Below are positions 4,311-57,780 of a stretch of 64,000 nt of DNA, piece by piece. Source of the stretch: Spinacia oleracea (Eukaryota; Streptophyta; Magnoliopsida; Caryophyllales; Amaranthaceae); assembly GCF_020520425.1 (NCBI RefSeq), contig NC_079487.1, positions 128,672,385-128,736,384 of the forward strand, read 5' to 3'. The stretch's first letter is position 1. Each line of letters opens with the position of its first letter. The notes under the pieces are model-generated. The model saw only the letters and a program-made list of their open reading frames with translations. It did no database searches and had not been told where the DNA came from. The translations under genes and the position numbers were made by a program.

Positions 4311-6107
4311 ATGACCATCTTCTAATTCATGGAAAAGAAGCGAAGAGGTTTTAAGAGTCATTTTAATTTAGTCCATTACATCGCACAACCAAAAGAACAA
4401 ATGAACCTTTGGCTCCATTGGAAATGGACATAATTTACTTTATTCCTCCAAAGATCGCCCCATTTTTCTTTTTACAGTCTTCAACACACGACTTAAAATG
4501 TAAACATCTCTAATTTTACACGCGGAAAAAGGTTGATATTTCAAAAATATATATTGAAACGAATCTAACACGATACTACATGACTATATTATTATTTACG
4601 AGCTAATGGGAATTCGTGATCAAAATTTTACCGAAAACATTGCAATGAAGCCATCTTTTACGGACGAAGGGACTATATGTCAACCTTTTATTCATATTTT
4701 ATCATCTCTCAACCTCTTTTATGGGACCTAAACAATCTTATTTAATATTTCTCTTACTCTCTCAATCTCTTGGTATTCTCGATTGTGAGTTGTCTTGGAT
4801 TCTGTTGCTACAGTAATTGAGCTTAAAAACAGAGGAATTAAGAAGTTTAATTGAATTACTCACTTTGGGAGGAAGACTTAATGATTCTGCAATAAAATCG
4901 CAAGGGGTTTTACCACTACCAGCTTTGTTTCTTATTTCCAAAAGATCCACAAGCCACCGATGTTTTCCCTTGAATGAGTCACGTTCATGTCCCCAAGTAT
5001 CCAAGAAAACTTGTACTATGTCAAAACGATTACCTTCAATTGCCAGATGCAACAGTGTGTTACCGTTCTTGTCTGTTAATCCCAACAGTTCTCTTAATGC
5101 TTGATTCTGAAGAAGGCGGTAAACATAGTAGTCCGATGGGTTGTTTAACTAGCAAGTGCCAAAATGTCTGACCATTGGCGTCAGAAATTCTTGCTGCTTC
5201 AGGGGAAACACTACATAGTATTGTAGCAGTAGACATATTACAAGTCTGAAACGCTCTTAGTAAGGGTGTCAGACCATTCTGGTCTGGCCAAAATGCCGCT
5301 TCAAGCATTGATTCTATGTCTTCTCTCTTGAATTGTTCCATGTCTTTGGCTAAACAAACATACAGTACGTTATCAAATCAAACACCAGAATGTAAAATAA
5401 GGTATGTACTGATATAGTGATGTGAGATATATTGAAAGACTTACAAACAGGATGTCCACCAATGAGATGAAGAGGTGTTTCCTTAGATTTGTTAACCAAA
5501 CAAGCTGATCTCTTATCATGTTCTAACAACCTTCTAAGTTCTAACAATAACATTGTTGTTTGCTATGTATAATGGCTTCGTGTAGAGGCGTATTGCCTAC
5601 TGCATTTTGCACCAACCAAGGTGGGTCGTAACGAGCTCCCTTGAGTGTTGTCTCTGCTTGAATTTTAACGACACACTGATTGCATAACTCTAGTAGTGCT
5701 GATAAAAGGCCTGATCTCCCCAACGAAGAGAAAACAGAATCGTCGCCCCAATATTTTGTTGTTGGGTGTTATTTTCTGAAGCAACATAAATTGTGGAATT
5801 AGGATTATTTCGAACAAGGACATGAACTGGAGTGTCTCCGTTAAGATCTGTTTCAGAAACAAGTGTAGGAAAGCTTCCGAGAACTTGTTGGATGAAATCT
5901 ACAAACTCATCTTGAGTTATTTTGTTAAAATAGTTTGTAACATAAATGTTTAACTCAAGTACTCAACCCATTAAAAAAAATTGATTCAAGTGGTGTCAAA
6001 CCATTTGTATCGGGCCAACACGCGACGCGACTAGCTTTCTCTAATAGACAATTGATCAAACTTGACATATCTTCTCCAGGTATAAATTTGATCACCAAAG
6101 CTGCTCC

Positions 6108-8743
6108 CAACGCGCGGTACGTGCAGGGGCCTGCACGTAGATCTACGTGCACCTGCACCAAAACGCAAAAAATACAAAAATACAAAAAGAACATAAGAAA
6201 CTAAACAGAAAGAACATAATAGAGTAAACGAAAAGAACATTAACCAAAAGCTGAAAAGAACACTAATGTTAAAAAACTAAAGAAAATGTACAAAATTGAA
6301 AATAACATATTCTCTCTTCTGATACACTATAAAAAGAACAATTATTTTACAAAAAGAACATCATGTGAAAAATGCAACAGAAAAAAAAAATATTATCGAT
6401 AATATTATAAAAAATTAAAAAACAGTAAAAAAAGTTAAAAAGTTAAAAAGAACACAAAATAATTAAAAAAAGAACAACAACTTTTTTAGAAAACACAAAG
6501 AACAAAATCAAAAGAAAAATAAAATAACAAAAACTCAAAAAATTTTAAGAAAAAGACAACAAAAAAAGAACAAGAGAACAAAACACATGAAAAAGAACAA
6601 CATTTTCTTTTTCCTTATCAAACAAAAGAACATAATGAAAGGGACGAAAAGAACAACAAATCTATGTTCTTTTATTAGTTGTATTTGTTCTTTTCAAACC
6701 AAACCACTTAGTGTTCTAATTAAAAAGACAAAAACGACGAAATTTTGATGCACTTAAAACGAGATCTATATTTAAATGTATTTTTGTTCTTATCCAACGC
6801 ATCAGATCTATGTTCTTTTATTAAGTGTTATTTGTTCTATTCAAACGATTTTATGTTCTAATTAAAAAAAGACGAAACGACGATTTTTTGATGCACTTAA
6901 AACTAAATCTATATTTAAAAAAAAAGTATTTTTGTTCTTTTACCACGAATCAGACTATGTTCTTTTTTAAGTGTTATGTGTTCTTTTCAAACCATTATAT
7001 GTTCTTTTTTTAACAATATATGTACGTTGATATAAAAGAACAAACTATTTTGATTTAAAAGAACAAACTATGTTGATGCCACAATAAAAGTAAAGTTGTG
7101 AAAAGAAAATTACAATTTGAAAAGAACATTAGAGAAAGAACAAGGAAACGTACCTTAAACACTTGATCAACATTTATCAGGAGCAGCAATATCTTTTAAT
7201 AAATCTTAAAAAACTGTTCTCAATCCTCGAAAAATATCACGCTCTCCAGATATTCTCTTGCTTTGAAAACTAGCCAAATTGAACTAATGTTTTTCTTAAT
7301 TCACTCATTTTTCAACAAAGGAGAAACATTCAGAAGGAATTTTAGAGAGAGAATAAGGAGAAAATATATTTTTTACTCTTTCACTCACCATCTCACTCTT
7401 TCTCTCTCAAAAAATCTCTCTTATGTTGAGAGAATATAAATCCTCTTCTCCTTCGGTCTCTAAAATGTATTTATAAAATAACTAATGGTTATGATCCATA
7501 AGTACAATTATTATATATATAGTTGCTGAAAAATAGAAAATGAAAAAAATAGGAAGTAGAATCAAAGAATAACAGAGAAGGAGAAAGAAAAAATTCTTAA
7601 AGAGTGCATAATGAGAACTATGCACGTGTTTTTATTTTGTTCTTTTAACAGAATATTATAAAAAGAACAAATGAAAAGACTAAAAGAACAAATAGAGAGA
7701 CTAAAAGAACAAGTCAAGTACCTTGTTCAACAATAATATATGATTCGGAATCATCATTTTCATCATTCTATTATGAATTATCAAGCACATTATTCATAAT
7801 ATCTGAAAAAATAATAGGTTAACATGTATTAAACCAAGAAAAAGAACGCAACCAAAAGAACAAAGGATAAATAAAAAGTAAGAAGAAAAATAACACAATA
7901 AAATAAAAAGAACAAGTTATGAAACACAAATGAAATTGAAAATAATAAAAAAGAAGAACACAATAGAATGAAAGAACAAATTATGAAACGAAAATGGTCT
8001 ATTTTTCTACTATAATGAAACTGTTCTTTTAATACGAGCATAAAGAAACTGTTCTTTTAATACAAGCATATGTTCTTTATTACGTAAAACTGTTCTTTTC
8101 TGGAAAAAAAATCGTAATTACATAATCCAAATCTTCAAAATCAGCGATTTCAATGAAATCAACGTGTTGTTACATAATTTGATTCATTAAAATCATCAAA
8201 ACCACCAAAACTCGATTATTACAAAAACAAAATCATCAAAATCATCAAACACACGATTATTACAAAATCAAAATCTTCAAAACCTAGAATTTATTTTTTC
8301 AAAATTGAAAAATTACCTCCCAAAATCTGATTATCAGCTGCAGAATTCAGATTTGAAGAAGAAGAATCGATTTAATTGGATGTTGAAGCAGAAAAATCAA
8401 CGAATTTTTGGGAATTTTCACTACTTTCTCTCTCTAAGAACTATTTTAGAAAACCTAGTTCATACTTTCTCTCTCCTCTTCACAATTTGAGTTCAAAACA
8501 TAAAATCTAGAAGAATATATATCGCAAGAAGAAAGCAAATCGAATAAAAATCGCGAAAAACAGAGCTGAAAAGAACAGAGCCTTTAATGTTCTTTTGTTC
8601 TAGGGTATTGTTCTTTTGTTCAAGGAAAATGTTCTTTTGTTCCCAGGATTTAATGAAACACGCGCGTTTTATGTGTTTTTTATGTCGTTTTGTTTCAGGT
8701 GCACCTAGAGCACGGTGCACACGCCTGCACCATCAAATTTGCG
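6108..8743. mobile_element. Nonautonomous Mutator-like element packed with AAGAACA/TGTTCTT motifs
   Basis: Inserted in exon 2 of ankyrin copy A. A 9-bp direct repeat AGCTGCTCC flanks it at 6099-6107 and 8744-8752, and the uninterrupted exon in copy B (around 22750) gives the empty-site comparison. The ends form degenerate inverted repeats: a 35-bp block GTGCAGG...TGCACCTG aligns without gaps between the left end (from 6121) and the complement of the right end. The left end also holds a perfect 20-bp palindrome at 6132-6151 centred on AGATCT. No transposase is encoded. The interior is AT-rich and carries about 25 AAGAACA and 16 TGTTCTT heptamers (hand count), grouped in runs of one orientation. 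Nine-bp duplications point to the Mutator superfamily. Confidence 0.8.
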
Positions 8744-9172
8744 AGCTGCTCCTCCTTCGTTGATCGGTTGTTTAATTCTGGTCATTATTGATTCACTCTC
8801 GGCTAAGTATCACACAAATACGCAACATAAGTTAGATATGGTTGTTTAATTCCGGTCATTCTTGATTCACAAATCAAAAACATACCTAAGGGTATTTTTA
8901 TGCCCATTTTTATGCTCATTGATTTGATTGGCTATTCGCATTGGATTGTAGTTGGATGTTTGACTTATAAAGATGTTTGGTAAACTTATTTATTGGCGGT
9001 TGGCTGTGAGCCTGTTACTATGTAAAATGACATTTATGGACATTATTATATTTTATTATCCATTTATTATATTCTTAGTAATTAACTTTTGAGTTTACTA
9101 ATATTTTGAGTTGGGTTGGTTACGGGTTGGACAAGAGTTTAGAATTCCTCGAATCGAACCAAGTAGGTGAAA

Positions 9173-10037
9173 TAGAGGTGTCAAAACGGTTACTCGAGTC
9201 GGGTCCGGATCTGGTTATCTCGGGTCTCGGGTCATGATCTGGTCGGGTCATGTCGGGTCATTTTATTGTCAGGTGCAGGTCGGGTTCAGGTCGGGTTCGG
9301 TCAGGTTGAAAATTTGTCGGGTCATGTCGGGTTATTTTTCCGTTTCGGTATAGGTCGGGTTCGGTTCGGGTCGGGTCGGGTCTTTTTCTAGTCGGGTACA
9401 ATTACGGGTCCGGGTCTTGACGAGTCGGATCAAGTTCGGATCGGATAAGTACCGGTCGGTTAAAAGTCAGGTCTGGTTCACTATCGTGCACGGGTTAAGA
9501 CCGGGTTTGGTAGCTATCAGGTTTAGTCAAGTTTTAACCTTATAATTAACTTTTATAACCTTTTGGTTAAATTTGGTTTAACGCTTTTCACTTGTTCTAG
9601 ATTACGTAATTATAAAAAATAATATTAACTTGATTTAAGTTATTATTTAGTTAGGTCAATGACAAATCGGGTTGTCAACAGGTCGCGTAAATTCAGGTAA
9701 CGGGTTGTCACGAATTGAGTCAATAACAGGGTTTCGTCGGCTTATAATCGGTTTCGGGTTGACATCGGGTCGGGTGTTGAATCGGGTTCGGGTCATTATT
9801 CGGTCGGGTAAGCTTACTCAGGTTTGTTATCGGATATATTTCGGTCGGGTGTCAGATTCGGGTCCGGGTCATGCGTTAACGGGTCGAAATCGATCATCGG
9901 TTTTAACGGGTTGGATACAGTCGGGATACGGGTTTCCTATTTTAACAAAATTTCGGGTCTCGGGTCGGGTCCGGATCTTTAAAAATACAGGTCGGTTCAG
10001 GTCGATTTTTCGGATCGGGTCAATTTTTGACATCTCT
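9173..10037 (+). mobile_element. hAT-like nonautonomous element with GGGTCGGGT-type filling, copy 1
   Basis: Starts TAGAGGTGTCAAAACGG and ends TTTTTGACATCTCT, giving short inverted ends, with an 8-bp target duplication AGGTGAAA at 9165-9172 and 10038-10045. Eight-bp duplications and a TAGRGGTGTC-type terminus fit the hAT superfamily. The 865-bp interior is a degenerate series of GGGT, CGGGT and GGTCGGGTC words with one AT-rich interval (about 9530-9660). No transposase is present. A second copy lies in the opposite orientation at 10876-11678. Confidence 0.8.
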
Positions 10038-10875
10038 AGGTGAAACTCGAATATGAATCACTTCACAGGGCGAATCATTTTTGACACCCATATACGACAC
10101 TGTAGTAAGAAGGATTCAATATCACGTGAAACAAAGGGAGTGGAAAATAAGGATGGTAATTATAAAAAGAAAAATGAAGGAAACGTCTTACTAAGTTACT
10201 AAAGAAGAAAAAAAAGAAAGGTATGTACTTGTTAGTTATTAAATTTTCTTATCTGAGGAATATACAATTAAGGTCTAACTTAGATTTTGTTTTGATTTGC
10301 TTAACATGAGGTTGATGTTTGGGTGCACGTAACACACCGTTTTATTCTTTTAATATTTTTGCTTAACATGAGATGATTTGATTCGTTCAATTAGTGACAC
10401 ATTTTAATATGAGGACTAATTTTAGGACAATCATCTTTAGTCTTATTGAATGCTCTCCGTCATTCTCATACTATATGTTACAAATTTCAAATAAGGAGTA
10501 AAAGGTTCGAAGATCTATTATGTATTCATACACATGTCGTTAATTAGCTAATCTTTCCCGCTAGATCAAAATTTCATTAGTAATATTCTAGTAGTACTAC
10601 ATAATAATCAGGAGGATTCACATCAACCAAACTTGCTTGTGAGTTGTGACAATCAAATTGTAATTAAGAAGGATTAGTCATTAGTCAACACTACAGTAGA
10701 AGATAACGTGTTGAGTTAAGATTATTCCTTCACTTTCACATTTTATAGATAAAAACATTTTTAAAAGACAAGTAAACATCGTTACACTAAAGTCAAATTA
10801 CGTGCGTATTATATATTTATATGATGTGTCTTCGAGAACGTATCACATGCCGTTGCATAATTACGGCTGCGCATT

Positions 10876-11678
10876 AGAGCTGTTAAAAATTAACCCGACT
10901 TGAGAAATCGACCTGTATTTTTAAAGATCCGGACTCGACTCGAGACCCAGAATTTTGTTAAAATAAGAACCCATAACCCGACCGTATCAAACCCGTTAAA
11001 TTCGACGACCGATTTCGACCCGTTAATGCATGACCAGGACCCGAACCTGACACCCGATCGAAATATAACCGATAACAAAACTGAGTCAGCTTACCCGACC
11101 GAAAAATGACCCGAACCCGATTCAACCCCCGACCCGATGTCAACCCGAAACCGATTATAACCCGATGAAACTTGTTATTGACTCAATTCGTGACAACCCA
11201 TTACCTGAATTTACGCGACCTGTTGACAACCCGATTTGTCATTGACCTAACTAAATAATAACTTAAATCAAGTTAATATTATTTTTTAGAATTACCTAAT
11301 CTAGAACAAGTGAAAAGCGTTAAACCAAATTTAACCAAATTTATAAAAGTTAAACTTGACTAGACCTGATAGCTATCGTACCCGGTCTTAACCCGTGTAC
11401 GATGGTGAACCCGACCTGAATTTTAACCGACCTGATAATTATCCGATCCGAACTTGACCCGACTTGTTAAGACCGGAACCCGTAATTGTACCCGACTAGA
11501 AAAAGACCCGACCCGAACCCGAACCGAACCCGACCTATACCGAAATGGAAAAATAACCCGACGTGACCCGACAAATTTTCAACCTGACCGAACTCGACCT
11601 ACACCCGGTGATAAAATGACCCATGACCCGAGATGACCAGACTCGGACCCGACTCAAGTAACCGTTTTGACAGCTCCA
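10876..11678 (-). mobile_element. hAT-like nonautonomous element, copy 2 (inverted)
   Basis: Same family as 9173-10037 but inverted, so the plus strand reads ACCCGACCCGA-type words. Ends are TAGAGCTGT and ACAGCTCC; the flanks are CTGCGCAT (10868-10875) and CTGTGCAT (11679-11686), an 8-bp duplication with one change. The AT-rich interval and the sequence order match copy 1 read backwards. The two copies lie 838 bp apart in intron 1 of ankyrin copy A and could pair as an 0.8-kb hairpin if transcribed. Confidence 0.8.
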
Positions 11679-14895: not shown

Positions 14896-16202
14896 TGATA
14901 GTTCAGTAGGAACACTTGACAAGAGGGGGGGTGAATTGTTTCTTGGGAACTTGAGTAAGTTTCTTGCGGAATTTAAACAATAAAGAGACTGAGAACAATG
15001 AGCGAAGAAAGATATAAAACGGAGGAACCTTCTTGACCCTAATCAAGAAGAACCTCACTACTCTTTTGTATTAATGCAATAACTCTATTACAAATACACT
15101 CTTTAACTCGAGTTCCTCTCGAACACGAGTTCCCCACAGCAATCCCCTTCGATTACTGTGCTACTCTTTCTCTCTCTGACTTAACTCTAAGTCGCTCCTT
15201 TTCTCTTTGACTTAACTCTAAGTCGCTGTTTCTCTCTTTGACTAAACTCTTAGTCGCTCTTTCTCTCTTTGACTTAACTCTAAGTCACTCAAGGATCACT
15301 CAATCCTTAAACCCAAAATACAATATGATAGATAGATTCTAGTACGTAATAAAGCTTATAATAATAAGGAACTCAAGGAACACTCTATTTTGCCAACTGA
15401 TTCTTTTAAAACGTTTAAGCTCTTTAAGATAGATTTTGTAGAAATCGGTTGTGTTTTGAAAAGCCAAAACTCTTCTCCTTTTATAGGAGAGTTTTACTTA
15501 GGGTTGGGTACCCATGTTCTCCTCAACTACCCACTAACAGTTACTGCTCAGTAACATGGGCATAGTTGGAGAGAAACAAGGGATACCAAATCAAAACACT
15601 AAATGTACGTTAAACAGAAATACGTGGGGAGAGTTTCAAGGAACATGGAAAATCTTTTACTTGAGAAACAAGGATAATAAACCAGAATCCTATGTTTCAT
15701 TTATTAATTAAATTCATTTTATTTATTAAAAAGATTTTCCAAGTTAAAACTCTTTTATAATTACAGTTAACATATTTCATTTAAAACGTACCAAAATACT
15801 TAGGTTCCTTTCGTTCCAAATTACGTATAAACAATATTAAATACTTACATAAATCCTAAACATAAACTCATATGTTGTAGTCTTCATGTTGCACCTTTAG
15901 AAGCTTCACTCGAAAACTTCCCAATTTGTTCCTTCTCTGGAACATCGAGGATCCACATAATATATGAGGATCTCGCCTTAGGAACTCGCCTAAGGATCTC
16001 GCCTTGCTTAATGATTATTTCTTCAATGTAGTGTCTGACATGGGTCAATTACTTGCTTATATTCCACGTTGCTTAGTTTATCCAACTCAGGATCTCCTTA
16101 ACTTAGCATTATCCCTCTAAGGATCTCGGAACCTATTATGCAACATAACTTAACCAATTGTCAGGAGTTTGCTTTGTCATCATCAAAACTTTAGGGTCAA
16201 CA
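14896..16202 (-). repeat. 3' LTR of the Copia element
   Basis: 1307 bp, TG...CA ends, matching 20582-21888 with one substitution seen near 15590. It contains four near-identical copies of GACTTAACTCTAAGTCGCT (one variant has GACTAAACTCTTAGTC) at roughly 30-bp spacing between 15178 and 15290, a possible enhancer array. Confidence 0.93.
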
Positions 16203-16220
16203 ATATTCCCCCTTTTTGGT
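16203..16220 (-). promoter_or_regulatory. Polypurine tract of the Copia element
   Basis: Read on the minus strand the bases right before the 3' LTR are AAAAAGGGGGAATATT, a purine run in the position where plus-strand DNA synthesis of an LTR retrotransposon is primed. Confidence 0.75.
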
Positions 16221-16976
16221 GATGACAACATAAGCAAACTTTCACTAAATGCAATAATAATCAATTAGCATAAATATAAAGCAATAAATTAAATAAAGTA
16301 TTTTTATAAAAATTAATCTAAATTTCCTAAATGAAATTAAGGAAAATTGAAATTAATTTTAATAAACGAAAATAAAATTAAGAACGAGAAATAAAATTTT
16401 ATAAACTTACATCGAGAAGAGAGTAGTGAGACGGACTCAAGTGATCAATTTAAGTTAAGTTTGCATTCATTTCCCCCTGTTGGCATTAACAAAAAGTAGA
16501 AATACACAATACTAATATATACCGATTATAGCGCCCTCCGATCAACAGTTGGCAAACTAAGTTAGCCTCAAAGTTAAGTTCCAACGTACTAAATTCGAAT
16601 ATAAAACATAATAATTAACAAGCCAAGTTTTTAGAGATACGATCTTTTAGGAGTTCCACAGAAATAAAGGAAGAGAAATTGTATGTTTCCCAACAGATGG
16701 TTACATACAAAAAAAATAAAAAAAAATAAAATAAAAAGTTCCAAAAAAAATCAAAAGCGTAATGTAACACAAATGGATAGGATCAGGAAAGATGGCTTGG
16801 GTATGTAGCAAGTTTAGGTTGTTCCTTTTTCAACTGCATATAGATCCATATCCTTTCTCAATTGCGTCTTTTCATTCTTCCACTTTCTCATCATCATTCT
16901 CATTATCATAATATATATCAACAAACAACAGAGAATATTTCACCTTGGAACCACTTTGTGAACCCTGTCATACTCT

Positions 16977-17750
16977 TTTTTGTTTTTTTTGTTTTGTTTT
17001 TTTTTTTTTTTTTTTTTAATTTTTTTTTTAATTTTTTTTTTTTTTTTTTTTTGGTATAACAACGTCCCCTTAGTATATACATCATAACCCATTCTTGTTC
17101 CCCCTGAGAACGTGCTGCCTTTTTTTTTCTTTCATTCGGGTTTTTAAAAGCACCCCCACCACCCGACCTCCGCTGTAATTCGCGGGTCGGTGAAGCTCCC
17201 TCTTTTTTCGGGTGGTTCGAACTAGACAGAGAGGCAGGGGGAGTTTCGGGTCTGGGTGGGTTCGGATCTGGGTGGGTTCTGTGGGGGTTGGCGTTAGCGA
17301 CCGGGTCAGGGCGAGTAGGGAGGGTCGCGAACTGGGTGGGGGGAGTTCGTTCGCGAGCGGTTGCTTGTGGAGGGACGTCGCGAGCGGGTTTGGGTTTGTG
17401 GGTTTCGGTGAGGACGGTGGCCATGGAGTCGGACGGCTGGGAGGTGGAGCCGCCGTCGTTGGTTGTTGTGGAGGGTTGGAGGGTTGGAGAAGCTCGGTTG
17501 CTGTGGTATCAGTGGTCGGTCGGTCGGCCGGGTTGGGTCCGGTCGCCGAGCCACTGCCGCCGGCGGTTGCTTGAGGCTGGCCGCCGCTCATGGTGGCTAG
17601 GGTTTCAGATTGGGGATTTTTAATTTCTAGGGTTTTGTGGTGTTTGAATTTGGGGATTTTTATTTTTGGGTTCCTTGTGTTTGAATTGGTGAGATGTGAA
17701 TTTGTGGTGGTTTTGGGTATGAGATCCATAGGGGCGATCCATTAGCTTTT
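16977..17750 (-). mobile_element. GC-rich insert with a long polyA tail inside the Copia element (LINE- or transcript-derived)
   Basis: On the minus strand an AT-rich leader is followed by AAACCCTAGCCACCATGAG, a good plant start context, at about 17590. A proline/threonine-rich frame follows (start MSGGQPQATAGG), then A-rich DNA of about 70 bases (16980-17052). A 5'-like region ending directly in polyA suggests a retroposed transcript or the 5' end of a LINE polyadenylated early. I did not find a target duplication, and low-complexity GC-rich DNA gives long frames by chance, so no protein is claimed. Confidence 0.5.
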
Positions 17751-18058
17751 AATTTTGGAAAAATAAAATTTAATGGAATAAGAAAAATTATGGATATATA
17801 GAAGGAAATAAAAGATAAAAATAATTTGTGGAAAAATAAAAGATATGAAAAAAAATTGTAACAAACAAAATATATCCATGATCCTTTTATTTTAGCGGAA
17901 CTTTTGATTTACGTATCTCATATTACTGACTAATTAAATACACATTTTAATTCTAAATTTTTGGTTGTTCCTTAACGATGGTAAACTTCAGTTATGCTTT
18001 ACGCACATGTATTTATAATGGTATACAGTAGTTCTGCATAAATCTATAAAAGTCATAC

Positions 18059-18142
18059 CTTGTGAGGAACTGTCCTGCTTACTTTTCTTATCTTGATCAT
18101 CCCGATATCGAATCTCATTTTCCCGTGCTTCTCTCTGCTTGT
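18059..18142 (-). other. Possible captured host exon fragment at the 3' deletion border of the Copia frame
   Basis: Directly after the stop of the Gag-RT frame, another minus-strand frame reads VNKQREARENEIRYRDD and then a lysine/serine-rich tail, ending at CACAAG followed by GTATGAC, a splice-donor-like border at 18059. The highly charged sequence is unlike Copia polyprotein. It may be a piece of a host gene joined when the RT region was deleted; this is inference only. Confidence 0.3.
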
Positions 18143-20515
18143 TTACTTTGCAAGATTCTTGCAAAAACTTTCATTAGTTGTACGAAACAGTAAATTATCA
18201 AAGTAAATTTGTACAACTAGTGAGTCAGATCCTTTTGATTTTAAAAATAGAATTTTATCAATTCTTCCTCGTTTAAAATCATTTTGTAAAAGAAACTTGC
18301 ATAATCTCTCGTACCACGATATAGGAGCCTGCATTAACCCATATAGAGCTTTGTCAGGCTTGTAGATGTGATTCGGAAATTCGTGATTCTCGAAACCTGG
18401 GGGTTGTTCCACATAGACGTCTTCTTCAAGAAAATCATTTAAGAAAGCACATTTGACGTCCATCTGATACAACTTAAATCCCATAAAGGCTTCCTGTTGA
18501 TTGTAGCCTTCGACTACTAACCTTGCCTTGTTCCTGACGATCGTTGTATGTTCATCGAGCTTGTTCCTGAACACCCACATCGATCCTATGACCTTTTGAT
18601 TCTTTGGTTTGGATTCCAGATGCCATACCTTGTTCCTTTGGAACTCGTTTAACTCATTTTGCTTGGCAGTGATCCAATCAGTATCTTTCAAAGATTCAGT
18701 GTGGTTCCTTGGCTCGATTATGGAGAGGAACGCATGAAAAGTACAAAAGTTCCTTAGTTGAGACCTTGTTTGAGTTCCTTTCCTAATATCACTGATAATC
18801 AGATCCATTGGGTGAGAACTTTGATGTTTCCAGGGCTTAGGTTGAAATTGTGCCACTGGAACATCTAAGGTCTCCTCAGTTCCTTCTGTTTCCTGAGATC
18901 CTTGTTCCTCTGCATCAGAGGTTTCTTGATCTTCTTCCGGTTCCTCAGAATCAGCATTTTCTAGTTCCTCAGGATCAGGGGCTCTTGGATTTCTTTGTAC
19001 AGGAACTTTTTGGTTAGAAGCAGTTTCTTGTGTTTGTGGATCTGCTATTCCATTTTGATGTCTTCCAGGAGAGATTTCCTCATCATTATCTGTAAAACGA
19101 ATTAAACCAATTTCGAAATCTTCTTGTTCCTGAATTTCATCAACATTGTTAGCTTCATCAAGCATAATATATACATTTTTAACTCTTTTAAAAGAGTCTT
19201 TAAGAGAGGTGTTCCTGTCAGGCAACTGAAAGAACCTACCATGTACATCAGATTTAACATTATCGAGGTAGGTTGTGTGTTCTTTGCTAAGTTCCACTGC
19301 CTTGTCACTTTGAGCCTTTATTACGATAAGCTTTTTAAAATTGTCTAGAGTTTCTATCAATAATTCCACTAATTTAATTTTAGACAGAGATAGAAGAGTT
19401 GAGGACATTACTTCACTTGATGGATCTTGGGTTGATTCATCGATCTTTGCCATAAGACAAAGGTTTGCTGTTTCTTCTGGTTGATCCTCATCTTCTTCCG
19501 AGTCAGTGGCTTCTTCCCAAGCTTCGATCATTGCCTTCTTGAAGTTGGGCTTGGCAAATGTGGATTTGTTGAATCTTTCCTTATATTGATCCTCTCCCTT
19601 GCCTTTCCCTTTTTCATTTTCCCACTGAGGGCAGTCTTTGATTTGATGGTCAGAATCACCGCACTTGAAACATCCTTGGTCAGACTTGGAACCGCTTAGT
19701 TTTCTCATTGAGTTCCTTCCTCTTAGATTTCCAGGTTTAGAGTTCCTGTAAAATCTTTTCATTCTTCTGACCAACGTAGCAACCTCATCTTCATCAGGTT
19801 CTGAGTCCTCCTGTTCCTCAGCCTTGAGAGCAAGGCCTCGGTTCTCAGGAACAACTGCTCCTAGATGTAATTCGTGAGTCATCAAGGATCCCGCCAATTG
19901 TTCAATGTTGAATTTGGTGAAATCCTTTGTTTCGAACAATGCTGTGACCTTGGTTCTCCATCTATCATCCTGTGGCATGCTCCTTAGGATCTTCCTAACC
20001 TGTTCATCAGAGGGAATATTTCTTCCAAGAGAAACTAGTTCATTAGTAATATTAGTGAAACGAGTAAACATTTCCTGTATTGTTTCTCTTGGTTGCATTT
20101 CAAAACGTTCATACTTAGACATTAATAAATCAATTTTTGAACGTTTGACCTCATTAGTTCCTTCATGAGTTATTTGAAGGAGATCCCAGATTTGCTTTGC
20201 GCTCTTGCACCCCATAACTCTGTTATGTTCATGAGGTCCAAGGCCGCAATGCAAGATTTTCACAGCCATTGCATTGATTTCAAATTTCTCAAAATCTTCC
20301 TTAGTAAATTCAGACATGGGTTTAGGAACTACCTCATTTTGAGCATTTGTCATTGTTACCTCGAAATCACCGACTTCTATGACTCGCCAGACTTGATAGT
20401 TCTCTGCCTTGATATAGATCTCCATCCTGTTCTTCCAGTAGGTGTAGAACTTCCCATTGAACATTGGAGGTCTTTGAGTGGAATAACCTTCCTCGAGTTT
20501 CTCGTAAGCGTTCAT
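18143..20515 (-). CDS. Copia Gag fused in frame to a truncated, catalytically dead reverse transcriptase
   Basis: Start chosen at MNAYEKLEEGY (20515); the frame stays open up to 20608, but that stretch reads through the primer site and LTR. The first ~250 residues are Copia Gag (FNGKFYTYWKNRMEIYI; MFTRFTNITNELVSLG), then a zinc knuckle CFKCGDSDHQIKDC (CX2CX4HX4C). The protease and integrase domains that normally follow are missing. A tail like the end of integrase (VYIMLDEANNVDEI) and an acidic linker lead into RT (VWHLESKPKNQKVIGSMWVF). Within RT the conserved block between YNQQE and AFMGFKLYQMDVK is deleted in frame, and the YVDD active site reads YFDN. The frame then stops at a deletion border. 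The RT cannot be active; Gag looks intact, as in the TR-GAG type of nonautonomous elements. Confidence 0.85.
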   Translation of the reverse strand: MNAYEKLEEGYSTQRPPMFNGKFYTYWKNRMEIYIKAENYQVWRVIEVGDFEVTMTNAQNEVVPKPMSEFTKEDFEKFEINAMAVKILHCGLGPHEHNRVMGCKSAKQIWDLLQITHEGTNEVKRSKIDLLMSKYERFEMQPRETIQEMFTRFTNITNELVSLGRNIPSDEQVRKILRSMPQDDRWRTKVTALFETKDFTKFNIEQLAGSLMTHELHLGAVVPENRGLALKAEEQEDSEPDEDEVATLVRRMKRFYRNSKPGNLRGRNSMRKLSGSKSDQGCFKCGDSDHQIKDCPQWENEKGKGKGEDQYKERFNKSTFAKPNFKKAMIEAWEEATDSEEDEDQPEETANLCLMAKIDESTQDPSSEVMSSTLLSLSKIKLVELLIETLDNFKKLIVIKAQSDKAVELSKEHTTYLDNVKSDVHGRFFQLPDRNTSLKDSFKRVKNVYIMLDEANNVDEIQEQEDFEIGLIRFTDNDEEISPGRHQNGIADPQTQETASNQKVPVQRNPRAPDPEELENADSEEPEEDQETSDAEEQGSQETEGTEETLDVPVAQFQPKPWKHQSSHPMDLIISDIRKGTQTRSQLRNFCTFHAFLSIIEPRNHTESLKDTDWITAKQNELNEFQRNKVWHLESKPKNQKVIGSMWVFRNKLDEHTTIVRNKARLVVEGYNQQEAFMGFKLYQMDVKCAFLNDFLEEDVYVEQPPGFENHEFPNHIYKPDKALYGLMQAPISWYERLCKFLLQNDFKRGRIDKILFLKSKGSDSLVVQIYFDNLLFRTTNESFCKNLAK

Positions 20516-20567
20516 ACTTTCCAGGAACTTTTTCTCAACAGGGTTTCCTGTATTTTTGTGAGATCCT

Positions 20568-20579
20568 GCTCTGATACCA
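20568..20579 (-). promoter_or_regulatory. Primer-binding site of the Copia element (initiator tRNA-Met)
   Basis: The minus strand reads TGGTATCAGAGC two bases inside the 5' LTR end, complementary to the 3' end of plant initiator tRNA-Met, the usual Copia primer. Confidence 0.92.
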
Positions 20580-20581
20580 AC

Positions 20582-21888
20582 TGATAGTTCAGTAGGAACA
20601 CTTGACAAGAGGGGGGGTGAATTGTTTCTTGGGAACTTGAGTAAGTTTCTTGCGGAATTTAAACAATAAAGAGACTGAGAACAATGAGCGAAGAAAGATA
20701 TAAAACGGAGGAACCTTCTTGACCCTAATCAAGAAGAACCTCACTACTCTTTTGTATTAATGCAATAACTCTATTACAAATACACTCTTTAACTCGAGTT
20801 CCTCTCGAACACGAGTTCCCCACAGCAATCCCCTTCGATTACTGTGCTACTCTTTCTCTCTCTGACTTAACTCTAAGTCGCTCCTTTTCTCTTTGACTTA
20901 ACTCTAAGTCGCTGTTTCTCTCTTTGACTAAACTCTTAGTCGCTCTTTCTCTCTTTGACTTAACTCTAAGTCACTCAAGGATCACTCAATCCTTAAACCC
21001 AAAATACAATATGATAGATAGATTCTAGTACGTAATAAAGCTTATAATAATAAGGAACTCAAGGAACACTCTATTTTGCCAACTGATTCTTTTAAAACGT
21101 TTAAGCTCTTTAAGATAGATTTTGTAGAAATCGGTTGTGTTTTGAAAAGCCAAAACTCTTCTCCTTTTATAGGAGAGTTTTACTTAGGGTTGGGTACCCA
21201 TGTTCTCCTCAACTACCCACTAACAGTTACTGCTCAGTAACATGGGCATAGTTGGAGAGAAACAAGGGAGACCAAATCAAAACACTAAATGTACGTTAAA
21301 CAGAAATACGTGGGGAGAGTTTCAAGGAACATGGAAAATCTTTTACTTGAGAAACAAGGATAATAAACCAGAATCCTATGTTTCATTTATTAATTAAATT
21401 CATTTTATTTATTAAAAAGATTTTCCAAGTTAAAACTCTTTTATAATTACAGTTAACATATTTCATTTAAAACGTACCAAAATACTTAGGTTCCTTTCGT
21501 TCCAAATTACGTATAAACAATATTAAATACTTACATAAATCCTAAACATAAACTCATATGTTGTAGTCTTCATGTTGCACCTTTAGAAGCTTCACTCGAA
21601 AACTTCCCAATTTGTTCCTTCTCTGGAACATCGAGGATCCACATAATATATGAGGATCTCGCCTTAGGAACTCGCCTAAGGATCTCGCCTTGCTTAATGA
21701 TTATTTCTTCAATGTAGTGTCTGACATGGGTCAATTACTTGCTTATATTCCACGTTGCTTAGTTTATCCAACTCAGGATCTCCTTAACTTAGCATTATCC
21801 CTCTAAGGATCTCGGAACCTATTATGCAACATAACTTAACCAATTGTCAGGAGTTTGCTTTGTCATCATCAAAACTTTAGGGTCAACA
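20582..21888 (-). repeat. 5' LTR of the Copia element
   Basis: 1307 bp, TG...CA ends, nearly identical to 14896-16202. It carries the promoter for the minus-strand Gag frame and the same four GACTTAACTCTAAGTC-type repeats. Confidence 0.93.
21163..21171 (-). promoter_or_regulatory. TATA box of the Copia 5' LTR
   Basis: The minus strand reads TATAAAAGG within a small CTCCT...AGGAG palindrome, 581 bp upstream of the LTR end; an identical site is in the 3' LTR (15477-15485). Confidence 0.6.
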
Positions 21889-23442
21889 CGTAGTATCAGG
21901 ATGATTCCGCACTAGGACATGAATAGGAGTGTCCCCCTTAAGGTCTGTTTGACAGATCAGAGAAGGAAAGTTTCCAAGAACTTGTTGGATGAAATCTACA
22001 AAGTCATCATGCAGTATACGACTTCCATTCTTAATCTGCATTAATATATGAAAGACATTCCTTCCCTTTGAATCCTGTGAGAGTAAGAAATCCATTCCTG
22101 ATTTACTCATCCTTTCCCTTAGAAAGGTTATGTCTGCTCTGTCCACTGCTTCAGATTCCTCACATGTCATGTTTCGTTTCCTTAGCATCTGAAACACAAA
22201 AGTCGCGTATATATGAAACTAAAAACAGCTTTTAATTGCATTAATTGTAATTAAAAAGATAGCATTAATATATAAGCATATATACCTGAAGCAGATTATG
22301 TTGCTGAATCAAAGATGCTGCAGAGTTACCTTCCATGTTTTTAATACTGAGTTTTGTGGAGGATTCCAACAGAACTCGAACCATGTTAATGTCCAAATTA
22401 ATAGCAGCAATATGTAATGGTGTATTTCCTTGTTGATCCTGATAATTTCTCAACGCGTATATCTCTTTAAATTTAAGCAAGTTTGTAGCTTCTTGGTAGC
22501 TAGGCATTCTATTAATCATAAGGTGTAAGATGGTCTTGCCAGAAGCATCACACACCTCTGCAGACTGTGGCCAATGGTAAAGAATAGTTCTTATGACCTG
22601 AAGATTGTAAGGAGTGTTTAGTGATGCTGCTTGATGAAGAGGAGTTGAACCATTTGCATCAGGCCAACATGTGACATGACTCCATTTCTCTACCAGAAAA
22701 GTTATCACAGTTGACATGTCCTCTCCTGGTACAAATTTAATCCACAAGGCGGCTCCTCCTTCGTTGATCGGTTGTTTTATTCTGGCCATTATTGATTCAC
22801 TCTCCGCTAGTTTATAAAAGAACACACACAACTACACAAGTTAGAAATTCCTTCATAGTTCATACTACATATGTTATTTCATAGTACTATGTTGCGGATG
22901 GTAATGTAACCAACTCTAGTCCTACGTACGGCACAACACTCAGTAGACTAGCTGTTTAAGGTTGGAACTCTAAGCTCTTCTAAGGTCAGAAAACTACTCG
23001 TTCAATTCGTGTACAAAGTTAGGCTTGAATGTCACTTAATTAAACAGAAAGAAAAAGCAAGTGAGCTTGTATTATTAAGCTAATTATTTTTTTTTGTAAG
23101 GAGAATTCATTCATTAATAAAGAGTCATACAACATCTATATGAAAAAATATAAATCTAACAAATACATGACAAATTGAATTAAATAAAGGTTTCCTTCAT
23201 CAAAACTACATTCGTTGAATGAATCCATGCAGCGTTTTCAGAGATAGGATCTAACGATTTATTGTAGCCGCGAGAATGGACGAACTCAGCCCCTATGGTG
23301 AAAATTTATTGAATTTAGGAAACAATAACTAAATTAAATGAAGGGAAAGGGTCGAAAATATCTAATTTCCGAACAAATTAGACTATTTTCGGCATACGAC
23401 GGCCAAGAAAATAAACCTTAGAAAATGAGGGAGGGAGAGAAT

Positions 23443-44269: not shown

Positions 44270-44469
44270 GGCGGATTTTTGTTCAACTTTTTTTGTTGAA
44301 AAGGTGGGAACTTGATTTTGATGGGAGTATTTGTTTTGTATTGGTGATTTTGTGGGGTTTTTCTCTGGGTTTAAGGTGGTGGCCGTCTACTTGGTTGAGA
44401 CTTGAGAGGGTCCCAAAAACACCGGTAACTTTTGTGTAAGACCGTCTTACCGGAAAAACCACTTTAATT

Positions 44470-44646
44470 GCTTAACTAATTGGTTTCATTGCTTAACTAA
44501 TTGGTTTAATTTCTTAACTAATTAGTTTCATTGCTTAACTATTTGGTTTCAGTGCTTAACTAATTAGTTTCATTGCTTAACTATTTGGTTTCAGTGCTTA
44601 ACTAATTAGTTTCAGTGCTTAACTAATTGATTTTATTCCTTAACTT
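44470..44646. repeat. 21-bp minisatellite, array 1 (GCTTAACTAATTGGTTTCATT)
   Basis: Eight full units of 21 bp plus a partial one, each a variant of GCTTAACTAATTGGTTTCAT plus one base. The flanks are GTAAGACCGTCTTAC (about 44436) and GTGAGACCGCCTTA (about 44673), which look like transposon ends. The array lies 200 bp upstream of the bS21c start codon. The same monomer builds the large array at 56568-57745. Confidence 0.9.
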
Positions 44647-44937
44647 ATATGATACCAAGGTGGTCTTTTGTGTGAGACCGCCTTATAGAAAAGTTTGTAC
44701 AAAAACAATAAGAAATTTTTCAAGCACCCCTAAATGATCGTTCCTCTCATCTCGCATGCTCCAATTGAGGAAGTCTATTTTAAAAGTTTTGTGTCTAAAT
44801 GGATGCAAATGACATATTGTTGGTATTACTCATAAGTCATTTGATGTTTAAAAAACTTCTGCTTCAAAGTTAATTAAGGTGGCGATTGACACGAGGAATA
44901 AGGATATGAATTATGAATTTGTTAGTTAATGTGTGGA

Positions 44938-55377: not shown

Positions 55378-57780
55378 ATGATATTTATAATTATATTAAG
55401 CAATAACAGTAGCTTTTCTATCAGGCGGCCTGACGCTCACGCGACTGTCAGACCGCCTATTTGCCCACGCGCGCGTGTGCTCACGCGCGGTTATATAATA
55501 TTTTTTTTCATTTTCCAGTTGGAGCTCTCCTCTCCTCCTCTTGTCTTCTCCTCTCTCCTGGTTCAAAATTCCTCAAACCGGTGGAGGTTAATCGATCTCG
55601 CCGCGGACCTCTCGCCATCCTCAAACTCGTAGATCTCTCTCGCTCGTCAAGCCCGCTGTTGATTTAGATTTGGTTTTAAGATTTTGATTTAGTTTTTTGA
55701 TTTTTGATTTTTGATTTAGGTTTACTTGGATATTGCTGAAATTTATCGATCTTACTCTCATGAAGAAGGACAATAAGATCGGTGAATCGGAAAGGAAGGC
55801 GGCGTTTTTTGTCGCCAGATTCATTTGAGCAGCGGCGAGTTTTGGTGGCGCTCTAAGGTGTTTCGGCAGCGAGAATGGTGGTCGACGGCACATGAAAGCG
55901 GGGAGCAGAGGTTTATTAAATCTACCTTTGAGTTGTTGAGCTCTAGTCAAGCAAGAATCTGAACACATCGCACATGAATGCCTTCAACACTCTTGCTGCC
56001 TACTGACATCTGAACACAAGGATCAAGCAATACCTGGATTTGCTAGCCGCTTCATGACCTACAATTGATTTCTTGTTTTCGTCCTTCTGGGCTTTGTTAT
56101 TAGTCATGGTTTCTAACTTTTAGTTAAGATTTTTGATTTTTAGTTATGAATATGTGATTTTTAGTTATTTTTTTTGTGCCCTTTTTTGGGTTTGTTTTTA
56201 GTTGAGATTTTATTAGATTTAGTTTTGTGTTTATGAGTTCCAAGCTTACAGTTATGTGTTTTTTAGTTTTATGAGTTTTAGTTAAGATTTTAGAAGTTTT
56301 AGTTAAGGTTTTATGAGTTTAGTTAAGAATTATCGTGTTTTAGTTAAGCTTTTGTTATATTTAGTTATGAGAAAAATGGTTTAGTTATATTTTTGTGCAT
56401 TTAAGTTATTTTTAAATTTATTATTAACTAAAATGAAAACGAAATTGTTCTTAACTAATATGAAATGATTTTTAACTAAAACAAATATAATCTTTACTAA
56501 AACATATTTAATTTAAATAAATTATTTGAAACAATAAGTAAAACTCGGAAAACTCAGCAAAATCTAAACTAATTGGTGTCATTGCTTAACTAATTAGTTC
56601 CAATGTTTAACTAATTGGTTCCATTGATATTATTTCTAATGCTTAACTATTTGGTTTCATTACTTAACTAATTGAAGTTCAGACTTAACAATCAAACATG
56701 GAAAGCTCATCAATCGTGTTCATTACATTAGTGTCCCATTTTAGGGTGTAAGGCCTACTCTTTTCACGTTGTAACTTGAATTCCTCGACAATTTCATCCT
56801 CGTCTTTAAACATATGTGTAAAATTTATAGGATCATTGCTTAACTAATTGAATTTTAGGCTTAACTAATTGGTTCCATTGTTTTAACTAATTCGCTTTGT
56901 TGATTAACTAATTGATTCCATTGCTTAACTAATTGAATTTCAGGCTTAAGTAATTAGTTATATTACTGAACTAATTAGTTCTAGTGCTTAACTAATTGGT
57001 TATGTTGCTTAACTAATTGAATTTCAGGCTTAACTAATTGGTTCTATTACTTAACTAATTGGTTTCAGTGCTTAACTAATTGGTTCCGGTGCTTAACTAA
57101 TTGGTTACGTTGCTTAACTAATTGGTTCTGTAACTTAACTAATTGGTTTCAGTGCTTAACTAATTGGTTATGTTGCTTAACTAATTGGTTCTGTTGCTTA
57201 ACTAATTGGATTTCAGGCTTAACTATTTGGTTTCATCGCTTAACTAATTGGTTCTATTACTTAACTAATTGGTTGCAGTGCTTAACAAATTGGTTATGTT
57301 GCTTAACTAATTGGTTTCGTTGCTTAACTAATTGAACTTCAGGCTTAACTAATTGGTTACATGGCTTAACTAATTGGTTCTATTACTTAACTAATTGGTT
57401 CCATTGCTTAACTAATTGGTTCTGTTGCTTAACTAATTGGTTTCGTTGCTTAACTAATTGAACTTTAGGCTTAACTAATTGGTTACATGGCTTAACTAAT
57501 TGGTTCTATTACTTAACTAATTGGTTCCATTGCTTAACTAATTGGTTCTGCTGCTTAACTAATTGGTTCCGTTGCTTAACTAATTGAACTTCAGGCTTAA
57601 CTAATTAATTGGTTATGTTGCATAACTAATTGGTTATGTTGCATAACTAATTGGTTCTGTTGCATAACTAATTGGTTTTGTTGCTTAACTAATTGAATTT
57701 CAGACTAAACTAATTGGTTCTGGTGCATAACTAAGTGGTTTCGGTGGGAGGTGATAAATCCAAAGAAATTTTACCCAACA
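55378..57780. mobile_element. Foldback-like element containing the 21-bp minisatellite
   Basis: At 55423-55458 a palindrome (AGGCGGCCTGAC ... GTCAGACCGCCT) resembles the GTAAGACCGTCTTAC flank of array 1. A GC-rich stretch with a TATA-like ATATAATAT and pyrimidine-rich DNA follows (55480-55970). From 56110 to 56400 the word TTTAGTTAAG recurs about every 21 bases, and from 56440 onward its complement CTTAACTAA recurs with the same spacing. Tandem repeats in opposite orientation on two arms are how Foldback/FARE elements are built. Outer ends and target duplication are not resolved. Confidence 0.5.
56568..57745. repeat. 21-bp minisatellite, array 2, with a 126-bp higher-order unit
   Basis: About 45 units of the type TTGCTTAACTAATTGGTTC, dense from about 56836. 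A block with ATTGAACTTYAGG recurs at 57331, 57457 and 57583, exactly 126 bp (six units) apart, with nearly identical units between. The array ends about 440 bp upstream of the ELP3 start codon. Confidence 0.9.

Follow-up and report, generated by a model that had tools for sequence, protein, structure and literature searches.

An array of one heptamer in a Mutator-like element of spinach and in its larger relatives: candidate binding sites for a trans-acting protein

The window analyzed here is a stretch of 64,000 nucleotides from Spinacia oleracea (NC_079487.1, positions 128,672,385 to 128,736,384), close to one end of which an element rich in one heptamer has been inserted (Table 1). A first-pass annotation had described a clean 9-bp target-site duplication and an empty site for this element, and both descriptions hold, as AGCTGCTCC is repeated exactly on either side and the flanks, once joined with a single copy of the duplication, match a paralogous stretch of the window at 82% over 173 bp without gaps. 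The gene copy at this empty site is one that we take to be ankyrin-repeat-like. The family to which the element belongs usually ends in CAACGCGCGGATGGTGCAGG ... CCTGCACCATCAAATTTGCG (30 loci), from which the window copy deviates at GTACGTGCAGG. The two ends of the window copy match each other over 57 bp at 77%; the outer 9 bp of the family ends are not inverted, and GATGGTGCAGG is found inverted just inside both ends.

The window holds further repeats. Arrays of 21-bp TTAACTAATTGG units lie at 44468-44650 and 56560-57760, whose word is not that of the heptamer array although the spacing is similar, and a large inverted repeat at 9175-11676 (arms 9175-9997 and 10906-11676) contains many words resembling GGGTCGGGTC. 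The region 14896-21007, presumably a Copia-like element, has a long minus-strand ORF at 18143-20728 and a direct repeat of 300 nt, its two copies at 14896 and 20582 being 100% identical.

Table 1. The heptamer-rich element, its parts and its target site, in window positions.
Feature	Positions	Strand	Remarks
Whole non-autonomous element	6108..8743	.	2,636 bp; extent from empty-site comparison and family ends
Left target-site duplication AGCTGCTCC	6099..6107	.	9 bp, exact
Right target-site duplication AGCTGCTCC	8744..8752	.	9 bp, exact
Paralogous empty site	22637..22809	+	ungapped match of joined flanks
Array 1	6187..7142	.	25 heptamers (13 plus, 8 minus, 4 plus)
Internal direct duplication	6654..7005	+	82% over 213 columns; within array 1; from self-match and alignment
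Motif-free island 1	7152..7480	-	TATA-like box, GAGAGAG leader, exon-like piece ending AAG/GTACG at ~7154 (by eye)
Array 2	7638..8097	.	12 heptamers (1 minus, 7 plus, 4 minus)
Exon-like piece between TTTTTTCAG and AAG/GTAC (by eye)	7722..7802	-	frame broken
Motif-free island 3	8317..8480	-	leader-like GAGAGAG stretch, donor GGGAG/GTAATT (by eye)
Array 3	8571..8636	.	4 heptamers (1 plus, 3 minus); adjoins 3' end

Between 6108 and 8743, we counted 25 copies of AAGAACA and 16 of TGTTCTT, exactly as estimated in the first-pass annotation, which had also set beforehand that a count no higher than in composition-matched sequence would speak against its reading of the array. In 1000 dinucleotide shuffles of the element, the heptamers averaged 1.6 and reached 6 at most, so that the 41 observed lie far above chance; expected counts derived from shorter words are uninformative, since those words contain the motif itself. 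The motif extends beyond the heptamer, with 39 exact occurrences of AAAGAACA and 34 of AAAAGAACA, and this shared core AAAAGAACA is constant, while flanks and spacers vary from site to site. Gaps of 21-23 bp form the commonest class between neighbors in the window element (14 of 40), and gaps of 20-24 bp make up 16 of 41 in the family consensus, compared to 3.9 when sites are placed at random in the same blocks. The heptamers are moreover sorted by orientation, into 8 runs as opposed to 20.5 by permutation (P about 1e-5). The run boundaries drawn previously (forward 6185-6660, 7030-7140 and 7660-7980; reverse 6660-7010, 8020-8100 and 8585-8640) are correct, although two lone sites, at 7638 (minus) and 8571 (plus), had been overlooked.

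The accompanying statement that the element encodes nothing is in line with the five ORFs of the window element, none of which gave a Pfam match above the cut-off, but requires qualification for the minus strand, where motif-free islands resemble, by eye, promoter and exon remnants with splice signals. Island 1 is homologous to a diverged relative, L103, in an alignment that spans both the GAGAGAG leader and the donor-like AAGGTAYG and gives the island the look of a gene start.

Using the spinach genome (894 Mb in 242 contigs, with C1-C6 of 115-189 Mb each), we searched for further copies of the small element. With the best 40 of 831 candidates scored, at least 49 matches were obtained, of which 30 loci, all near full length, were analyzed. 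Every one of the 30 carries 35-42 heptamers in both orientations, and copies without the motif, which the first-pass annotation had named as evidence against its reading, were not encountered among those examined. Perfect target-site duplications of 9-10 bp flank 19 of the 30 copies (a count including L087 and L081, whose cut matches were shifted by 13 bp and 1 bp, respectively), four further duplications contain one mismatch, and none convincing was seen at the remaining seven. These lengths fall within the 8-11 bp given for MULE target-site duplications (PMC6446971); the state of the TIR is also that of a Mutator-like element, a weak indication since presence and absence are both allowed. 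The closest pair of copies is 99.92% identical, and the family has therefore moved recently. Genome-wide, the two end patterns occur 270 and 391 times with two mismatches at most.

At G000 C3:12734641-12742538, a single 5' end precedes three family 3' ends spaced by 2,609 bp, an arrangement suggestive of a tandem multimer of the element. L098, L099, L100 and L109 are long elements bounded by family ends, and no transposase was recognized by eye in their inserts. The L098 insert resembles a LINE by eye, the 5-6 kb inserts of L099 and L100 were taken for nested elements, and L109 (G000 C1:132404538-132408973) is a family copy with a 1.75-kb insert, through either gene capture or nested insertion, that presumably holds an amidophosphoribosyltransferase-like stretch. 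Scans for the spaced motif gave 4 matches in viral_contigs and 63 in genome_contigs, the records being viral and prokaryotic, and the family end pattern gave none in viral_contigs. In our literature searches we noticed no publication on the heptamer family, which is not proof of absence.

Across the 30 copies, divergence amounts to 0.0102 in the motifs, 0.0208 elsewhere and 0.0187 in trinucleotide-matched positions, and 0.2% of circular shifts reach the motif value. Variants common to at least two copies number 11 in the motifs compared to 27.8 expected, and single-copy variants 53 compared to 62.5; relative to GC-matched heptamers, the deficit has a P value of 0.00045 for shared variants and 0.04 for singletons. 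As shared variants are depleted and singletons barely so, the array seems to be retained in lineages that transpose. The contrast between shared and singleton variants is modest once CpG sites are removed (11/53 in motifs vs 206/474, P 0.03). On a parsimony tree, whose many long terminal branches mix change before and after insertion, the ratio of internal to terminal changes did not differ significantly (10/60 in motifs vs 177/653, P 0.22), the per-site rates of both being lower in motifs. A low value is furthermore not unique to this motif, given that 2 of 34 frequent words taken as control heptamers have zero shared variants. Single diverged copies gave a graded picture: L102 (aligned at 92%) has 34 of 42 motifs intact against a control rate of 0.58, the decayed copy L101 has 28 of 42 (0.67), hardly above its control of 0.63, and in L103 (aligned at 71%) 11 of the 16 motifs that align are intact, compared to 18 of 204 for control heptamers, a figure that can be inflated because the choice of register in repeat arrays favors motif-on-motif alignment. 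The expectation that the motif is conserved more than its surroundings is thus borne out between lineages, where it changes less, but hardly so in L101 or by the tree contrast.

These data also bear on neutral growth, in which slippage and unequal exchange would have spread an A-rich word without function. The unit-like spacing, the local tandem repeats and the presence of other 21-bp arrays in the same window would all be accounted for; the constancy of the core while spacers differ between units would not, nor would the lower divergence across lineages, part of which homogenization by exchange could mimic. We regard neutral growth as most unlikely, with the proviso that the readings weighed in this study do not exclude one another.

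The array part of L103 led to larger relatives. Among the matches listed (best 40 of 637 candidates scored), at least 29 other places are found at 89-98% and at least 7 at 69-81%, and 28 of the 29 places at 89-98% cease to follow L103 at query position 2,866. Two of the larger elements, L112 and L113, were read over 10 kb each from the 5' end, a stretch in which the 3' end was not found. Both share the family 5' end with one mismatch and contain 105 and 127 heptamers, respectively, compared to a mean of 4.6 and a maximum of 9 in 200 shuffles of L112. Most of these heptamers lie in dense arrays between ORF pieces resembling exons, and from the ORFs and their splice-like borders we infer an exon/intron model for the coding relatives. 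Between L112 and L113, differences affect 1 of 693 motif bases and 72 of 8,492 others (P 0.04). The similarity of the window family to the large elements is concentrated in their first 2.8 kb, as patches of ~65-77% plus some short stretches of 83-85%; combined with the gene-start-like island 1, this suggests that the small element is probably a deletion derivative of its large relatives.

The best exon candidate is a 264-residue open frame of L113, placed by eye after TTTTTTCCAG and before GTAAAC, with three heptamers before the acceptor, three after the donor and none between. The frame recurs at full length in 27 places at 94-100% (query included; five identical) and in one partial place, and 22 of the 27 are devoid of stops. 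Its product (L113:4691-5482:-) matches PF10536, the plant mobile domain (PMD), with 22.6 bits and an E value of 7e-5, below the curated cut-off of 34.9 bits, and an hhalign comparison of this exon with two true PMDs gave a probability of 19% and an E value of 0.0012 over 43 columns. The VANC-protein domains DUF1985 and DUF287 found no match in six ORFs of L112/L113, which represent a partial gene, and no transposase was recognized among the ORFs in the first 10 kb of these elements, six of which were run on Pfam.

Beyond base 2,850 of L112, 63 of 66 heptamers read TGTTCTT on the strand of the ORF series. This is the best point for a role of the motif in RNA, where UGUUCUUUU would be a U-rich intron signal aiding the splicing of element transcripts, and the heptamers adjoining the splice-like borders of the best L113 exon agree with such a role, while their absence from the exon itself fits an RNA signal and protein binding alike. 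The best point against it is the mixed orientation in the small family, both in the window (25 vs 16) and in the 30 copies; moreover, one exact word repeated some 40 times exceeds what U-richness needs. An RNA signal is, on balance, distinctly unlikely.

Subterminal repeats of CACTA (En/Spm) elements are situated close to the ends and are bound by a protein of the transposon, and the subterminal arrays of known elements are short. The heptamer array is similar in that a single short word is repeated many times in either orientation, and it could serve as a set of transposase-binding sites for the cut-and-paste step rather than for anti-silencing. Short imperfect terminal repeats would make such additional sites plausible, the outermost heptamers are near both ends (6187 and 8630), and retention of the motif in transposing lineages would be expected. 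However, in contrast to the short arrays near CACTA ends, in the large relatives the word continues throughout the 10 kb read, well beyond the 5' end (the 3' end was not found), and we consider a transposase-binding array unlikely.

As a candidate for an autonomous partner, we evaluated L103 together with L105, in which the family 5' end and array are followed by a transposase and a PMD gene, with Pfam matches after the L103 array to Mutator transposase (PF03108, PF10551, PF04434) and to PF10536. As L106, a sister of these genes, showed, the MULE-PMD family possesses separate ends along with AACCGCTATC repeats that are palindromic, and from ~2,900 bases past its 5' end L103 carries an end similar to the MULE-PMD end along with diverged palindromes. 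A PMD-like exon of the array family is situated 41 kb past the L103 5' end, at C2:959957. Based on the junction at 2,866, the separate MULE-PMD ends and this distant exon, we rejected this candidate as a nested insertion. The transposase beside L103 is taken as belonging to another family, which leaves the heptamer family with no linked PMD protein that scores above threshold.

This separate Mutator-like family, comprising L106 (G000 C2:63840301-63850300), L105, L107 and L108, combines an 855-aa transposase ORF with a neighboring PMD gene (examined in L103/L105, L106 and L107), and its ends carry subterminal palindromes AACCGCTATCTGAGATAGCGGTT. Matches to the L105 transposase at 69-72% identity are found at 18 places, and at 12 of these the frame stays open for 851-855 aa. 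Heptamer arrays are absent from L107 and L108, further MULE-PMD pieces, and from L110 and L111, which hold other Mutator transposases; L111 (G000 C3:85386001-85396000) presents, at ~6.7-9 kb, a Mutator-like transposase region, after which come short repeats similar to GATCTAGA/ATGTCTAG, with as many as 6 copies in 1.5 kb. It may be that Mutator-like elements with motif arrays are frequent in the spinach genome.

Other short arrays together with 3 scattered heptamers were also seen in L106, an observation that element-specific binders fit better than a host factor would. A host factor, for instance a transcription factor, could bind the array and recruit or block chromatin marks; a word this simple could fit several plant factors, and nothing here marks the binder as element-encoded. 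Nevertheless, we judge a host factor to be very unlikely.

The closest known counterpart is the VANDAL/VANC system of Arabidopsis, in which VANC21 binds YAGTATTAY and VANC6 has another motif, with VANC sites arranged as tandem repeats both within introns of VANB21 and VANC21 and upstream of VANA21, which encodes the transposase (PMC5735166). Like VANDAL elements as portrayed in PMC5735166 and PMC10398659, the present family is Mutator-like with weak or no TIRs and contains short-motif tandem arrays in non-coding DNA and introns (here apparent introns, deduced from ORFs and splice-like borders), and the motif differs between families. The present family departs from this system in its host, which lies outside Brassicaceae, in its dominant words (AAAAGAACA and parts of it, where VANDAL has YAGTATTAY or AGTTGTCC/AGTTGTAC), and in having a weak PMD-like exon in place of DUF1985 and DUF287, the domains named for VANC in PMC5735166, neither of which was matched in the six ORFs. 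Given that VANC motifs differ between VANDAL families (PMC5735166), the motif mismatch opposes membership in VANDAL21 or VANDAL6, not a VANDAL-like system. We have not filed the heptamer family as VANDAL because its motif differs and because neither VANC domains, in six ORFs, nor a transposase, in the first 10 kb of two large relatives, was recognized; judged by its sequence, the array would work like a VANDAL target array.

Further cases from the cited literature touch on the same question. AT9TSD1 of Arabidopsis is unrelated to VANDAL, yet carries VANC6 motifs and responds to VANC6 (PMC5735166); it is comparable as an element carrying motifs, whereas the small family here shares its 5' end with coding relatives. 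MULE-PMD (PMD-C) fusions with MULE transposases are described from several grasses and Amborella in PMC5418596, which speculates on anti-silencing for MULE-encoded PMD proteins. The spinach family likewise joins a Mutator-like element with a PMD-like exon, which is, however, a distant, sub-threshold match and not a PMD-C fusion. The DOWN motif of Arabidopsis PMD targets (CATGCAGTTT, MORC1 promoter, PMC9899485), considered as a possible match, differs from the heptamer motif.

Taken together, these results point to a model, which we consider reasonably probable, in which the AAAAGAACA array provides binding sites for a trans-acting protein of the larger coding relatives and, by analogy to VANDAL/VANC, keeps element copies active or unsilenced. 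The first-pass annotation had likewise proposed sites for a trans-acting protein of an autonomous relative, or else for a host factor; the excess count, the presence of the array in 30 of 30 copies, its slower change and the arrays between exon-like pieces speak for sites of a trans-acting protein, while the lack of a VANC domain in six ORFs, the sub-threshold PF10536 match and the lack of a transposase in the DNA read speak against them. The window element would be non-autonomous and belong to a young family of Mutator-like elements whose terminal repeats are short and imperfect, and its array may have been built up by tandem-repeat growth at ~21-23 bp per unit. The coding relatives would produce the protein that binds AAAAGAACA while holding the array in their own non-coding DNA, mostly in apparent introns; copies with intact arrays would multiply, and arrays would decay after insertion. 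Since the VANDAL anatomy is repeated here with another word and the motif is retained at the level of lineages, an element-encoded binder appears most likely, and its gain would be activation or anti-silencing rather than transposition itself.

A more specific version of this model is tentative and, in our estimate, somewhat improbable: a convergent VANC counterpart outside Brassicaceae, in which a Mutator-like family would encode a protein with a PMD-like part that binds AAAAGAACA arrays, both those in introns of the family itself and those of small parasitic derivatives, and shields them from silencing. In the literature surveyed, Arabidopsis is the only organism for which a transposon-encoded protein is described as counteracting silencing in a sequence-specific manner. 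The heptamer family would offer another system, independent of the Arabidopsis one, for tests of motif, protein and mobility, in a recently active family of a crop plant, with more than 100 copies of one word in the 10 kb read of each large element, a widespread open exon and small derivatives as its assets. It would thereby also bear on the speculation that transposon-borne PMD proteins oppose silencing.
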